Below, piece after piece: positions 41,092-51,723 of a stretch of DNA of 64,000 nucleotides. Position 1 is the stretch's first letter. Each line of letters opens with the position of its first letter. Made by a program: the position numbers and the translations under genes. The stretch covers positions 310,001 to 374,000 of the forward strand of contig NZ_JAOWPT010000003.1 in assembly GCF_025753855.1 (NCBI RefSeq). The letters are read 5' to 3'. Source of the stretch: Mesorhizobium sp. ZC-5. Lineage in GTDB: Bacteria > Pseudomonadota > Alphaproteobacteria > Rhizobiales > Rhizobiaceae. A model generated the notes under the pieces. The model was not told the DNA's origin, searched no databases, and saw nothing but the letters and a program-made list of their open reading frames with translations.

Positions 41092-41952
41092 CTAGAGTGT
41101 CGGAAGGACGCTGCGGATGTGATCGGCAAATGCCTCGATCGCCGGCGATCGTTCGGATTCGGCAAAAGCGATCAGAACCCCAAGGCGGGATAGCTGGGGC
41201 AGGGGCGTGTTGAGAACAAAGAGGTCGGATGGAACCGCCTCCTTGGTCATCACACTTATCGCCAGGCCGGACCGGGCAACGGCAATCAATCCGGCAATGC
41301 TGTTGCTGGCATAGGATATCTTATAGCGCAGCCCGGCACGGGCCATGGCATCACAGGCGGCTCTATGATCCATGGCGTTCGACGCCGGCAGAGCCAGTGG
41401 CACGGTGTCGCCAAAATCGTGGAGGTCCAGGGTCGGCCTGCTGCCCACCCATACGAGCGGCTCCGTCCGCACGATATCCATCGACTCATCGGTCGCATCC
41501 GGAGTTGAAACAAGCGCCAGATCTATCTGGCGCGAATTCAGGAGTGTCCGCAGTTCAACCGTCGGTGCGGAAACGACCTTGATCTCGACATCGGGGTACA
41601 GGGTTCCGAAGCTTTTCAGGAGCGTCGGGAAGAAGGCGATCAGATAATCTTCGGGAGAGCCGAAGATTATCGAACCGTGCAAGCCCTTCGCCGAGAGTGC
41701 TAGAACCGCTTCGTCGTGGATTCTGAGAATGCGCTCGGCATAAGCCAGGAAGCGCTCTCCACTTCCGGTGAGACGGACCCCGCTGCCGTTTCTATGAAAC
41801 AGACTTTGGCCGAGAGCCTCCTCGAGCCGCTGTATCTGCATCGTCACCGCCGATTGCGTGCGTCCGACCTGTATGGCGGTCGCACTAAGGGTTCCCGCGT
41901 GGGAAGCACGGACGAACGTTGCCAGTAGCCTGAGATCAAGTGGTCCGTGCAT
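41092..41952 (-). CDS. dgdR: LysR-family regulator, probable DgdR
   Basis: A 286-residue LysR regulator divergent from the dialkylglycine decarboxylase gene. The helix-turn-helix lies at about residues 8-65 (LRLLATFVRASHAGTLSATA, TQSAVTMQIQRLEEALGQSL), and the effector domain starts near SIIFGSPEDYL. In Burkholderia cepacia a divergent LysR repressor, DgdR, controls dgdA in response to 2-aminoisobutyrate and similar amino acids; the layout is the same here, so I use that name by context. ATG 41952 is chosen because GGAA lies 5 bases upstream; an earlier ATG at 41982 would overlap the operator region. It converges with merR. Confidence 0.82.
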   Translation of the reverse strand: MHGPLDLRLLATFVRASHAGTLSATAIQVGRTQSAVTMQIQRLEEALGQSLFHRNGSGVRLTGSGERFLAYAERILRIHDEAVLALSAKGLHGSIIFGSPEDYLIAFFPTLLKSFGTLYPDVEIKVVSAPTVELRTLLNSRQIDLALVSTPDATDESMDIVRTEPLVWVGSRPTLDLHDFGDTVPLALPASNAMDHRAACDAMARAGLRYKISYASNSIAGLIAVARSGLAISVMTKEAVPSDLFVLNTPLPQLSRLGVLIAFAESERSPAIEAFADHIRSVLPTL

Positions 41953-41989
41953 ATCAATTCCGTTGATAGCTGAATCCGACAATTATCAA
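41953..41989. promoter_or_regulatory. overlapping LysR-type dyads between dgdR and dgdA
   Basis: ATCAA-N5-TTGAT (41953-41967) and TTGATA-N15-TATCAA (41963-41968 and 41984-41989) overlap in the short divergent gap. Such AT-rich dyads are typical LysR binding sites. The stretch is clearly AT-richer than its surroundings. Confidence 0.6.
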
Positions 41990-42048
41990 TTTTACTGGAT
42001 CCATGCCAGCCGCTAATTTTCCGCCGGTGCTCTGGCGAGGCTGTGAAG

Positions 42049-49006: not shown

Positions 49007-50602
49007 ATGAAGTCCCTGCTCCTCTTGCGTGCCGCCATCCTCGCGTCCTCCGTCCTCATGGCAGGACAGGCGTCGGCCAAGACCCTGGTCTACTGCTCGG
49101 AGGCCAGCCCCGAAGTCTTCACGCCGATGCTGAGCACGTCCGATTCCACCATGGACGCAGCCGCCAAGACGATCTTCAACCGGCTGGTCGAGTTCAAGCC
49201 GGGCTCCACCGAGGTCGGGCCCGCGCTGGCGGAAAGCTGGGACGTGTCGCCGGACGGCAAGGTCTACACCTTTCACCTGCGCCACGGCGTCAAGTTTCAT
49301 ACCAGCGCCCATTTCACCCCGACGCGGGAATTCAACGCGGACGACGTTCTCCACACCTTCAACCGCCAGTGGGACGCGAACAATCCCTACCACAAGCTCG
49401 GCAGCGGTTCCTACGAGATGTTCGCCGCGCTCGGCCTCGGCTCGATGATCGACAAGATCGAGAAGGTGGACGACCACACCGTGCGCTTCACCTTGAAGGC
49501 CGCCAACGTGACATTCCTGTCCGGCATCGCGCTCGACTACATGTCGATCATGTCGCTGGAGCAGACCGAACAGATGGTCGCCGCGGGCACGCCGCAGCTG
49601 ATCGACAGCGAGCCGGTCGGCACAGGTCCCTTCGTGCTCCAGGCATATATGATGGACAGCCAGATCCGCTACACGGCCAACAAGGACTATTGGGGCGGTG
49701 CGCCAAAGATCGACACGCTCGTCTTCGCCATCACGCCCGAGCCGATGATCAGGGTCGAACGGATCAAAGCCAACGAATGCCAGGTCGCCGCGCTGCCGCC
49801 GCCATCCGCCGTGGAAGACCTGAAAAGTCATCCCGACATCAACGTCCTCCAGCTCGAGGGGCAAAACATCGGCTTCCTCGGCTTCAACGTGGAGCACAAG
49901 CCGCTGGATGACGTGAGGGTGCGCGTCGCCCTTGCCAAGGCGATCAACCGGCAGGCGATCGTCGAAGCCGTCTACCAGGGCGCCGGGAGGCTGGCGGGCA
50001 GCGTGGTGCCTCCGACGCAGCTCGGCGCGGTCAAAGATGCCGGCATCGACTACGATCCGGAGGGGGCGAAGAAGCTGCTGGCGGAAGCCGGCCATGCCGA
50101 CGACCTGTCGCTCAAGCTGTGGGCGATGCCAGTCTCGCGACCCTACAATCCGAACGCACGCCGCATGGCGGAGCTTATCCAGTCCGACTGGGCGGCGATC
50201 GGCGTAAAATCCGAGACCGTTGTCTATGAATGGGCCGAATATCTCCAGCGCACGGCCGCAGGCGAGCACGACGTCTTCCTGCTCGGCGGCAGCAGCGACA
50301 ATGGCGACCCCGACAACCTGCTCAGCTACATGCTGTCGTGCGAAGGCGTGGCCGGCGGCTCCAACCGCTCGCGATGGTGCGACCAGGACTTCGACAAGCT
50401 TCTGAAGGAAGGTCGCGAAACCTCCGATCCGGACAAGCGCGCGGAGATTTACCGCCAGGCCCAGGCGATCGTGAAGACCGAGGCGCCCGGCGCACCGATC
50501 GCGCATTCGGTCGTCTCGATCCCCGTGCGCAAGAACGTGCTGAACTATGTGCTCGATCCGCTTGCCCGTCAGAATTTCGCTCGCGTCGACATAGCCGAGT
50601 AG
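49007..50602 (+). CDS. peptide-type ABC substrate-binding protein
   Basis: A 531-residue periplasmic binding protein of the SBP_bac_5 (DppA/OppA) family. It has a signal peptide (MKSLLLLRAAILASSVLMAG, cleaved near QASA) and the family patterns PALAESWDVSPDGKVYTFHL and RVRVALAKAINRQAIVEAVY. AAGGAG precedes the ATG. No permease or ATPase genes are adjacent, so it must use a transporter encoded elsewhere. It lies 56 bases after the ligase gene on the same strand and probably belongs to the cluster, perhaps feeding it short peptides or amino acid derivatives. Confidence 0.92.
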   Translation: MKSLLLLRAAILASSVLMAGQASAKTLVYCSEASPEVFTPMLSTSDSTMDAAAKTIFNRLVEFKPGSTEVGPALAESWDVSPDGKVYTFHLRHGVKFHTSAHFTPTREFNADDVLHTFNRQWDANNPYHKLGSGSYEMFAALGLGSMIDKIEKVDDHTVRFTLKAANVTFLSGIALDYMSIMSLEQTEQMVAAGTPQLIDSEPVGTGPFVLQAYMMDSQIRYTANKDYWGGAPKIDTLVFAITPEPMIRVERIKANECQVAALPPPSAVEDLKSHPDINVLQLEGQNIGFLGFNVEHKPLDDVRVRVALAKAINRQAIVEAVYQGAGRLAGSVVPPTQLGAVKDAGIDYDPEGAKKLLAEAGHADDLSLKLWAMPVSRPYNPNARRMAELIQSDWAAIGVKSETVVYEWAEYLQRTAAGEHDVFLLGGSSDNGDPDNLLSYMLSCEGVAGGSNRSRWCDQDFDKLLKEGRETSDPDKRAEIYRQAQAIVKTEAPGAPIAHSVVSIPVRKNVLNYVLDPLARQNFARVDIAE

Positions 50603-50613
50603 GGGCCGCCGGG

Positions 50614-51723
50614 ATGACAAGCACAACAAATGCGATCAGCGGCTTGCTGGCGGACTATATCGACCAGGGCGCGGTGGGCGCATCGCTCACCTTCGCCTTG
50701 GCGGGAGCGCCGGCGGAAGCCATAACCGCCGGCCTGGCGGATCGGAGCGACGGCACCCCCGTCACGCCCGACAGGCTCTTCAAGATCGGGAGTTGCACCA
50801 AGACTTTCGTCGTCGCCGCTCTCGTCCGCCTCGCGCAGGACGGAACGATCGATCTCGGTGCACCCGTCTCGCACTGGTTTCCGGATCTGCCCGGAGCAGA
50901 AGGGATATCCGTCCGGCAACTGGTCAATCACCGCAACGGCCTGCCGGAGTTCGAATATTATATTCCGATGGACCCGAGCCGGGTGTGGAAACCCTTGGAG
51001 CTGGTCGACGTCGCCTTCAAGGCCGGCGGGCAGAAGCGTTCGGGCGGCCCCGCCGTCTACAACAACACCGGTTACGTGCTTGCCGGAATGCTGATCGAGG
51101 AGGTCACCGGCCAGCCGCTGGGCGGCTATGTCCGGCAGGTGGTCCTCGAACCGCTCGGGCTGCGCGACACGTGGTCTCCCGCCACCGAGGCATTTCCAGC
51201 CGGGCAGCTGGTGCGCGGCTACTTTCACCGCCCGCCGCCCGCTGCCGGCGCGCCCACCGACATCGCTTCGGGCGGAGAGATGTGGCGGATGGATGGAGTG
51301 CTGCCTTATTCCGACGCGTTGCAGGATTCGTCCGACGCCTTTCCCTATTCGGCGGCTTATGCCTGCGGCGACATGGTCTCGACGCCCAGCGATCTCGTTG
51401 CGTTCATGCGCAACCTGTTTGCAGGCGAGGTGATTTCGCCGCGCTGGTTCGAGGAGATGTTCGGCGCGCGGGCGCCGGCTTCCTTCCCCGGCACCCGCAT
51501 GCGCGAGACCGGCGCCGGCCTGTTTCAGAGCAGCTACGGCGACCGCGCGTTCTACGGGCACCAGGGCAGCATTCCGGGCTACGTCTGCGTCATACAACAC
51601 GACCCGGAAAGCGGGCTGACGATTGCCATGACCAGCAATGTCGGCTCCGGCAACCGCCTGTCCTTCCAGGCGAGCGGCCTCCACCCCGTCGTCGACAAGG
51701 CCATCCACGCGATCCTGGACTGA
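50614..51723 (+). CDS. cytoplasmic serine hydrolase of the class C beta-lactamase/D-aminopeptidase fold
   Basis: A 369-residue penicillin-recognition serine hydrolase. The three motifs are Ser-x-x-Lys in IGSCTKTFV, Tyr-x-Asn in AVYNNTGYV and His-x-Gly in YGHQGSIPG. No signal peptide is seen, so it acts in the cytoplasm, unlike beta-lactamases and cell-wall carboxypeptidases; D-aminopeptidases and esterases of this fold are cytoplasmic. It starts 11 bases after the binding protein gene, which suggests hydrolysis of the imported peptide or amide. A role in cutting peptides rich in dialkyl amino acids is a guess from context. Confidence 0.85.
   Translation: MTSTTNAISGLLADYIDQGAVGASLTFALAGAPAEAITAGLADRSDGTPVTPDRLFKIGSCTKTFVVAALVRLAQDGTIDLGAPVSHWFPDLPGAEGISVRQLVNHRNGLPEFEYYIPMDPSRVWKPLELVDVAFKAGGQKRSGGPAVYNNTGYVLAGMLIEEVTGQPLGGYVRQVVLEPLGLRDTWSPATEAFPAGQLVRGYFHRPPPAAGAPTDIASGGEMWRMDGVLPYSDALQDSSDAFPYSAAYACGDMVSTPSDLVAFMRNLFAGEVISPRWFEEMFGARAPASFPGTRMRETGAGLFQSSYGDRAFYGHQGSIPGYVCVIQHDPESGLTIAMTSNVGSGNRLSFQASGLHPVVDKAIHAILD

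Follow-up and report, generated by a model that had tools for sequence, protein, structure and literature searches.

2-Aminoisobutyrate and isovaline have no alpha hydrogen and so escape ordinary transamination. Both are constituents of fungal peptaibols (PMC10169451), and a 2021 paper calls the decarboxylase the only enzyme known for 2-aminoisobutyrate, to which it adds one oxygenase (PMC7782822). A B12-dependent enzyme, 2-hydroxyisobutyryl-coenzyme A (CoA) mutase (HCM), is encoded in operons that also hold a 2-hydroxyacid ligase (HCL) and usually a GntR regulator (PMC7176365). In Mesorhizobium sp. ZC-5 (genome 6.34 Mb), on a 64,000-nucleotide stretch of contig 3 (NZ_JAOWPT010000003.1, positions 310,001 to 374,000 of the forward strand; the window hereafter), the two meet: dgdA, the gene for 2,2-dialkylglycine decarboxylase, stands at the head of genes for an HCM-like mutase. 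With a divergent LysR gene they make one tight unit, in which dgdA is followed by the genes for the small mutase subunit (B), a MeaB-type G protein, the large subunit (A), an enoyl-CoA hydratase (ECH)-family protein and a CoA ligase, the junctions from dgdA to the ligase being 16, -4, -4, 10 and 8 bases. The chances seem to us evenly divided that dialkyl amino acids are degraded by way of CoA activation, B12 rearrangement, deamination and beta-oxidation, with DgdA as a parallel branch.

An earlier interpretation of this DNA from its letters (the sequence-only reading) had named these genes, and after them a peptide-type binding protein and a serine hydrolase, and their presence, order and place are as it gave them. 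It had also supposed the combination to be new to the literature. Among the literature matches listed, whose coverage is largely without subscription journals, there is indeed a description neither of the combination nor of an aminoacyl-CoA mutase of the type proposed below.

Conservation of the unit

Could such a row of genes have come together by chance? A scan with a four-sequence alignment (two peptide patterns; best 80 matches) gave 79 loci from named genomes, counted here as L108-L186 (L109 and L127 are from the same genomes as L069 and L071, which stand outside the counts). In 32 of the 79 the mutase is 81-93% identical to that of the window, and 30 of these are complete, with all seven genes, LysR-dgdA-B-meaB-A-ECH-ligase, in order: the arrangement is not a chance one. 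The exceptions are L186, where the large-subunit frame is broken, and L128, from the gammaproteobacterium Peristeroidobacter soli, which is without dgdA, LysR, the hydratase-family gene and this ligase; dgdA is present in the other 31 loci. Since all loci come from one pattern scan, the 47 remaining mutases are those that share the scan peptides. The cluster loci are distributed over Mesorhizobium, Aminobacter, Labrys, Pseudaminobacter, Sinorhizobium, Phyllobacterium, Shinella, Rhizobium, Hoeflea, Brucella, Ochrobactrum, two other Rhizobiales, Pseudogemmobacter, Roseovarius and Peristeroidobacter. Presence was counted by tblastn; the codon-based gene caller missed or shortened some genes, for instance the Mesorhizobium Kal frame described below. 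A LivK-type match of at least 50% identity occurs in 28 of the 32 loci and a short-chain dehydrogenase together with a thiolase in at least 12, the latter being a lower bound because of those missed or shortened genes.

Sinorhizobium meliloti LMB1 carries the unit on a plasmid that typing marks as conjugative, where genes for AraC, a dehydrogenase, a thiolase and LivK come before it. On a Shinella plasmid it is adjoined by genes for acyl-CoA carboxylase subunits, methylmalonyl-CoA mutase and an epimerase, neighbours that match the need of a C5 substrate such as isovaline, because that would yield propionyl-CoA. One metagenome-assembled Rhizobium contig (L115) carries the cluster twice, in inverted orientation, which is either a duplication or an assembly artefact.

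How does the association appear from the side of dgdA? A close dgdA is present in 39 of the 397 genomes of an order sample, the window's counted, and the dgdA regions of 29 of the other 38 genomes were read. Where dgdA is 87-88% identical the unit is there (3/3 regions), and at 56-77% identity it is not (26/26), a LysR match being present in 12 of those 26. As 26 of the 29 regions are without the unit, dgdA without the mutase is the wider arrangement. The co-occurrence that the sequence-only reading had proposed to look for is thus one-sided: the clade of close mutases has dgdA in 31 of its 32 loci and does not carry the two apart, but most other dgdA regions have no mutase.

A peptide source, peptaibols for example, had also been suggested. 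That idea was founded solely on the DppA-type protein and the serine hydrolase next to the ligase, and within the 32 related loci the former has DppA-family matches of 24-26% only and the latter no match. As these two do not recur, peptide degradation was rejected as the core of the unit.

DgdA and the LysR/dgdA interval

The best solved relatives of the window DgdA are 2,2-dialkylglycine decarboxylase entries, with the next molecule far behind at 234 bits (Table 1). At 17 of 17 active-site positions checked (including Gln52, Lys272 and Arg406) the residues are identical in all 32 sequences, i.e., the window and 31 loci. By sequence and active-site residues the window protein fits the dialkylglycine decarboxylase family. 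In 31 of the 32 loci LysR diverges from dgdA as it does in the window, and the interval between the two genes holds an operator-like footprint. A strict pattern for the footprint, derived from the same alignment on which it was counted, occurs in 31 of 31 sequences (the window and 30 loci; L186 not taken) and in none of the shuffles. A loose pattern misses 14 of the 31 cluster sequences and matches the other 17; among the dgdA-only loci it matches 5 of the 12 that have LysR and none of the 14 that have not. The footprint would be in keeping with a dialkylglycine-responsive regulator that governs the unit as a whole. That dgdA is joined to an HCM-clade mutase in a conserved and apparently co-regulated cluster, the centre of the sequence-only reading, is borne out.

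The mutase and its altered residues

For the large subunit the best solved match is HCM (4r3u), at 725 bits against 462 bits for methylmalonyl-CoA mutase, and the best for the small subunit is likewise HCM (141 bits); the protein pair belongs with the two-subunit mutases of the HcmA clade. The tree has 45 rows, of which 13 are dgdA-linked; these form a clade (100/100) within the HCM group, sister to L136/L175 (100/99), and the rows outside HCM, two Kal-operon mutases (see below) among them, are long-branched. The sequence-only reading had regarded a plain methylmalonyl- or isobutyryl-CoA mutase as an outcome that would undo it. Such an enzyme was rejected since neither the scores nor the residues (Val90 and, read from separate alignments rather than from the residue-count table, Gln208) are fitting; the Tyr89/Arg207-type active site of methylmalonyl-CoA mutase is absent from the window protein.

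Though of the HCM clade, the cluster mutases do not have the HCM hallmark of large-subunit Ile90 with small-subunit Asp117, positions which reportedly contact the substrate in HCM (Kurteva-Yaneva 2015). Position 90 is Val instead of Ile in all 31 scorable cluster loci (L135 is unreadable there) and position 117 is Glu instead of Asp in all 32. The pair Val90/Glu117 is accordingly found in 31 of 31 scorable cluster loci, and in 0 of the 42 others (out of 47) where both positions are readable: 31 of those have Ile/Asp, seven Ile/Glu, two Val/Asp and two Phe/Gly. The seven with Ile90/Glu117, all beside HCL, are from Chloroflexi, Eremiobacterota and unclassified bacteria (L140, L163, L164, L168, L169, L171 and L177).

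The sister mutases (L136:4406-13931 and L175:434-9997) are Val90/Asp117 and stand beside HCL, a hydratase-family gene and a dehydrogenase, with P450, ferredoxin and reductase genes nearby by eye, perhaps a fuel-ether or tertiary-alcohol cluster. For the fuel-ether pollutants that had been put forward as a substrate source of the window's cluster there is no support in the 32 loci, yet these sisters have such P450-system genes along with HCL.

The ligase and the hydratase-family protein

HCL is near 39 of the 47 other mutases (for five of the eight without it the contig is short or ends there) and near none of the 32 cluster mutases. In its stead 31 of the 32 have a different ligase, with no significant similarity to HCL. 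This exchange and the residue shift together indicate that the acid activated in the cluster is probably not that of the HCM operons, and the plain 2-hydroxyisobutyrate route to which the mutase and ligase had been assigned does not suit either the ligase or Val90/Glu117 in place of Ile/Asp. Elsewhere, an HCM-type cluster on an Agrobacterium deltaense plasmid (L192:1537-9677) is near a glycoside hydrolase family 3 gene and a transporter; a cyanogenic glucoside as source of its 2-hydroxyisobutyrate is a guess.

Could the hydratase-family protein remove ammonia? Both catalytic Glu are present in the window and in 30 of 31 cluster loci (L186 is unaligned there), and the window protein has a Phe six residues past the second Glu, the spacing of Glu133/Phe139 in BvaB1. 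The same Glu pair is found in BvaB1 and BvaB2, members of the hydratase family that have been proven to be beta-aminoacyl-CoA ammonia-lyases; in the beta-valine degradation to which they belong a ligase activates the amino acid before they act (PMC4619459). The Glu pair and the Phe permit a lyase role and do not prove it, because ordinary hydratases share the pair and the extra contact of BvaB1 is through its backbone. By this analogy we propose that the protein acts as a beta-aminoacyl-CoA ammonia-lyase, a hydratase or both.

Peristeroidobacter soli and the Kal operons

The P. soli mutase is 85% identical to the window's and nested within the clade. Its genes are preceded, with a 4-base overlap to the small-subunit gene, by that of a homologue of Kal, the 3-aminobutyryl-CoA ammonia-lyase (NF052388, 127.5 bits, E 3.4e-37, under the family cut-off of 160), whose sole solved match at E<=0.1 is beta-alanyl-CoA ammonia-lyase (4mtu, 1.3e-17). 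A 3-hydroxybutyryl-CoA dehydrogenase gene follows the large subunit. Divergent from the Kal-mutase genes is one for a Peptidase M19 (membrane dipeptidase family, 272.6 bits; L128:6857-7981, minus strand).

About 23 kb off, P. soli has a second operon, with large and small subunits of a Val90 mutase, a ligase, Kal and MeaB, and additionally an adenosyltransferase gene (by eye) and a branched-chain amino-acid permease-like gene (BcaP, 511 bits, cut-off 690). Its large subunit is 47% identical to the first, its ligase 67% identical to one encoded 3 kb downstream of the first mutase, and its Kal 75% identical to the first. Pseudaminobacter salicylatoxidans has a like operon, without adenosyltransferase and permease, separate from its own dgdA cluster (the second operon type is at L198:6686-13730 and L197:6204-11205). 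Across the Kal operons and the neighbour of the first mutase the ligases are 62-67% and the Kal proteins 68-75% identical, so that like ligases and lyases accompany two distant mutases. In Mesorhizobium B2-4-15 a Kal homologue (45%) is about 110 bases past livK of the dgdA cluster.

How rare is Kal? At E<=1e-10 homologues are in three of 32 genomes (that of the window plus 31 from the related loci, L120 left out). Counts made with another Kal query and a stricter limit gave one of 398 genomes of the phylum (E<=1e-20), the cluster-bearing Mesorhizobium just named, and one of 147 of the order of P. soli, which is P. soli itself. No relative of the second-operon mutase was found at E<=1e-180 in the 398 genomes, a negative of little weight as nothing matched anywhere, and on plasmids there was none at 1e-160. 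Kal matches on plasmids number eight records. Of the four inspected, three are ectoine-like biosynthetic clusters, and the idea that plasmid-borne Kal regularly goes with mutases was rejected; the fourth (Rhodococcus) is unannotated. The plasmid Kal-like hotdog domains of L201, L202 and L203 are in such ectoine-like clusters with adenylation and carrier proteins, the match in Rhizobium gallicum falling within a gene annotated as alanine racemase.

A proposed route through CoA thioesters

What might the unit do? It may be an operon that is induced, under DgdR-like LysR control, for the breakdown of alpha-methyl, alpha-amino acids without an alpha hydrogen, such as 2-aminoisobutyrate and isovaline. 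The LivK protein would import the amino acid, the AMP-forming ligase would convert it to the CoA thioester, and the B12 mutase would shift the CoA-carboxyl group from the quaternary to a methyl carbon, giving a beta-aminoacyl-CoA, 3-aminobutyryl-CoA in the case of 2-aminoisobutyrate. From this the hydratase-family protein, whose part may fall to a Kal-type lyase in a few genomes, would remove ammonia to leave an enoyl-CoA, which the hydratase-family protein may also hydrate, and the short-chain dehydrogenase and thiolase would complete beta-oxidation. DgdA would decarboxylate the same amino acid to a ketone in parallel. We know of no precedent for the mutase step on a 2-aminoacyl-CoA. Pointing to an amino acid as substrate are dgdA as first gene of the unit, with its residues and footprint kept, and the LivK-type protein, whose best solved match is an amino-acid binding protein. 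Also in favour of the route are the ligase exchange, Val90/Glu117, the rare Kal homologues in P. soli, Mesorhizobium B2-4-15 and the second operons, the BvaB precedent with its shared Glu pair, and the carboxylase, mutase and epimerase genes of the Shinella plasmid. The wider claim, that there are B12 2-aminoacyl-CoA mutases working with hydratase- or Kal-type lyases, in two lineages, that of the dgdA clade and that of the Kal operons in P. soli and Pseudaminobacter, and with them a third, O2-independent, route for 2-aminoisobutyrate and isovaline, we would place a little short of an even bet.

The sequence-only reading had seen an amino and a hydroxy route joined in the cluster. The link between dgdA and the mutase stands; the context favours one amino-acid route through CoA thioesters instead of two. 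Still, the mutase could be a modified HCM whose substrate is 2-hydroxyisobutyryl-CoA or, should Val90 make space for it, 2-hydroxy-2-methylbutyryl-CoA; the new ligase would then activate the hydroxy acid, and dgdA would handle the corresponding amino acids, both kinds of acid coming from a single source. The nesting in the HCM clade, the acidic residue retained at 117, HCL beside every one of the seven Ile90/Glu117 mutases, the sisters L136/L175 with Val90, HCL and a hydratase-family gene, and a 2-hydroxyacyl-CoA lyase beside the P. soli mutase operon all favour this, and we nevertheless consider it unlikely: no cluster locus has HCL nearby, the binding protein and the footprint are of amino-acid and dgdA type, Kal is present in P. 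soli and Mesorhizobium B2-4-15, and a 3-hydroxyacyl-CoA product needs neither lyase nor hydratase. The mixed signals of P. soli, Kal along with the 2-hydroxyacyl-CoA lyase, could alternatively reflect several small-acid enzymes under one regulator with a promiscuous mutase for amino- and hydroxyacyl-CoA. The strictness with which residues and gene order are kept over many genera suggests one specific job, and makes this distinctly improbable. That same lyase is central to a linear route in which acetone, made by DgdA from 2-aminoisobutyrate, would be joined to formyl-CoA to give 2-hydroxyisobutyryl-CoA, which the mutase would convert to 3-hydroxybutyryl-CoA. It would account for dgdA and the mutase in one operon and has a related precedent in sulfate reducers (PMC7888143). 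However, it leaves the ligase without a job, and the lyase family (E<=1e-120) is in one of 32 genomes, namely P. soli, whose locus has no dgdA, and is absent from the window genome, more distant thiamine enzymes being possible; the route was set aside on this account as very improbable. Least probable of all, to our minds, is a mutase for a quaternary acid free of heteroatoms, of pivalyl-CoA type, with dgdA a passenger of shared regulation. A pocket presumably widened by Val90 and a ligase with no assigned substrate would suit it, but Glu117 is kept in 32 of 32, there is no acyl-CoA dehydrogenase among the scanned unit genes, and the context is one of amino acids.

The amino-acid route through CoA thioesters has its own difficulties. 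DgdA by itself should already dispose of these amino acids, and it is puzzling that one operon should hold both routes. Glu117, present in seven of the 42 readable other mutases, each with HCL, is by itself no amine marker and was dropped as such, and in the mutases of the second Kal operons position 117 is Gly. Nor is the hydratase-family gene proof of an amino route, for L136/L175 have HCL and such a gene at 50% identity; the matching Phe says little, since the BvaB1 contact is a backbone oxygen, and a rat hydratase fragment has a hydrophobic residue at the same place. As to Kal, the P. soli score is sub-threshold, the Pseudaminobacter gene is not beside the dgdA cluster, the window genome has none at E<=1e-10, and 29 of the 32 genomes searched lack it. 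The close relative without dgdA is one genome only, P. soli, and there the 2-hydroxyacyl-CoA lyase (658 bits, cut-off 600) is between the mutase operon and the ligase, on the opposite strand.

If the amino-acid route through CoA thioesters is true, it keeps the entire carbon skeleton and needs no oxygen, and the B12 acyl-CoA mutases gain a new substrate class. The pattern of residues and operons makes it directly testable in culturable rhizobia.

Layout of the locus

The features of the locus are collected in Table 1. A TTG at 47313 is an alternative start for the ligase and would give a 4-base overlap instead of the 8-base gap. No leader is seen by eye on the serine hydrolase, no predictor having been run. 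Adjoining the cluster, at 53115-58991 on the minus strand, are genes of tyrosine phosphatase, ABC transporter and metallophosphoesterase families, none of them related by family to the cluster genes.

Table 1. Genes and footprint of the dgdA-mutase locus, in window positions
Feature	Position	Strand	Remarks
LysR-type regulator (DgdR-like)	41092..41952	-	divergent from dgdA; start set at ATG 41952
Operator-like footprint, LysR/dgdA interval	41950..41995	+	CATATCA..TGATA..TATCAATTTTAC; first 3 bases are the LysR start codon
dgdA, 2,2-dialkylglycine decarboxylase	42049..43386	+	1d7r, 676 bits; active-site residues
B12-binding small mutase subunit	43403..43870	+	gap 16; Glu at the place of HcmB Asp117
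MeaB/MeaH-type G-protein chaperone	43867..44868	+	overlap 4; TIGR00750, 314.9 bits, cut-off 240.75
Large mutase subunit, HCM clade	44865..46556	+	overlap 4; 4r3u, 725 bits; Val90, Gln208; tree
Enoyl-CoA hydratase-family protein	46567..47316	+	gap 10; both catalytic Glu
AMP-forming acyl-CoA ligase (PRK06155-like)	47325..48950	+	gap 8; PRK06155, 487.5 bits, below cut-off 722
DppA-type peptide-binding protein	49007..50602	+	gap 56; DppA model, 676 bits, below cut-off 1005; local addition
Beta-lactamase-fold serine hydrolase	50614..51723	+	gap 11; PF00144, 191.8 bits; local addition
LivK-type amino-acid binding protein	51846..52964	+	gap 122; best solved match 3ip5, 578 bits

Comparison with known systems

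One near system is HcmAB with HCL and MeaH of Aquincola, Methylibium and Xanthobacter, where a single operon likewise encodes a two-subunit B12 mutase, its G-protein chaperone and a CoA ligase, with a large subunit of the same clade and 57-58% identical. The cluster differs in having LysR (by dgdA in 31 of 32 loci) and dgdA instead of GntR, in the absence of HCL (0 of 32) and in Val90/Glu117, and it adds the hydratase-family gene and an amino-acid binding protein. The proposed route and the BvaA/BvaB pathway of beta-valine have in common that an amino acid not open to transamination is first activated with CoA and then loses ammonia through a hydratase-family protein; the beta-valine pathway has no mutase, and BvaA resembles phenylacetate-CoA ligases (PMC4619459). 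The Kal of lysine fermentation is of the family that the P. soli protein matches by E value, though the latter is below the family cut-off and is joined to a B12 acyl-CoA mutase. The AibH1H2 monooxygenase route of Rhodococcus also serves 2-aminoisobutyrate catabolism and has a LysR gene in its cluster, but it is O2-dependent and its described steps involve no CoA ester or B12 (PMC7782822). With the known DgdA and its divergent LysR the cluster shares 17 of 17 residues, the divergent regulator and a related footprint; to these it adds a six-gene CoA/B12 unit that sets it apart from the 26 dgdA-only regions.

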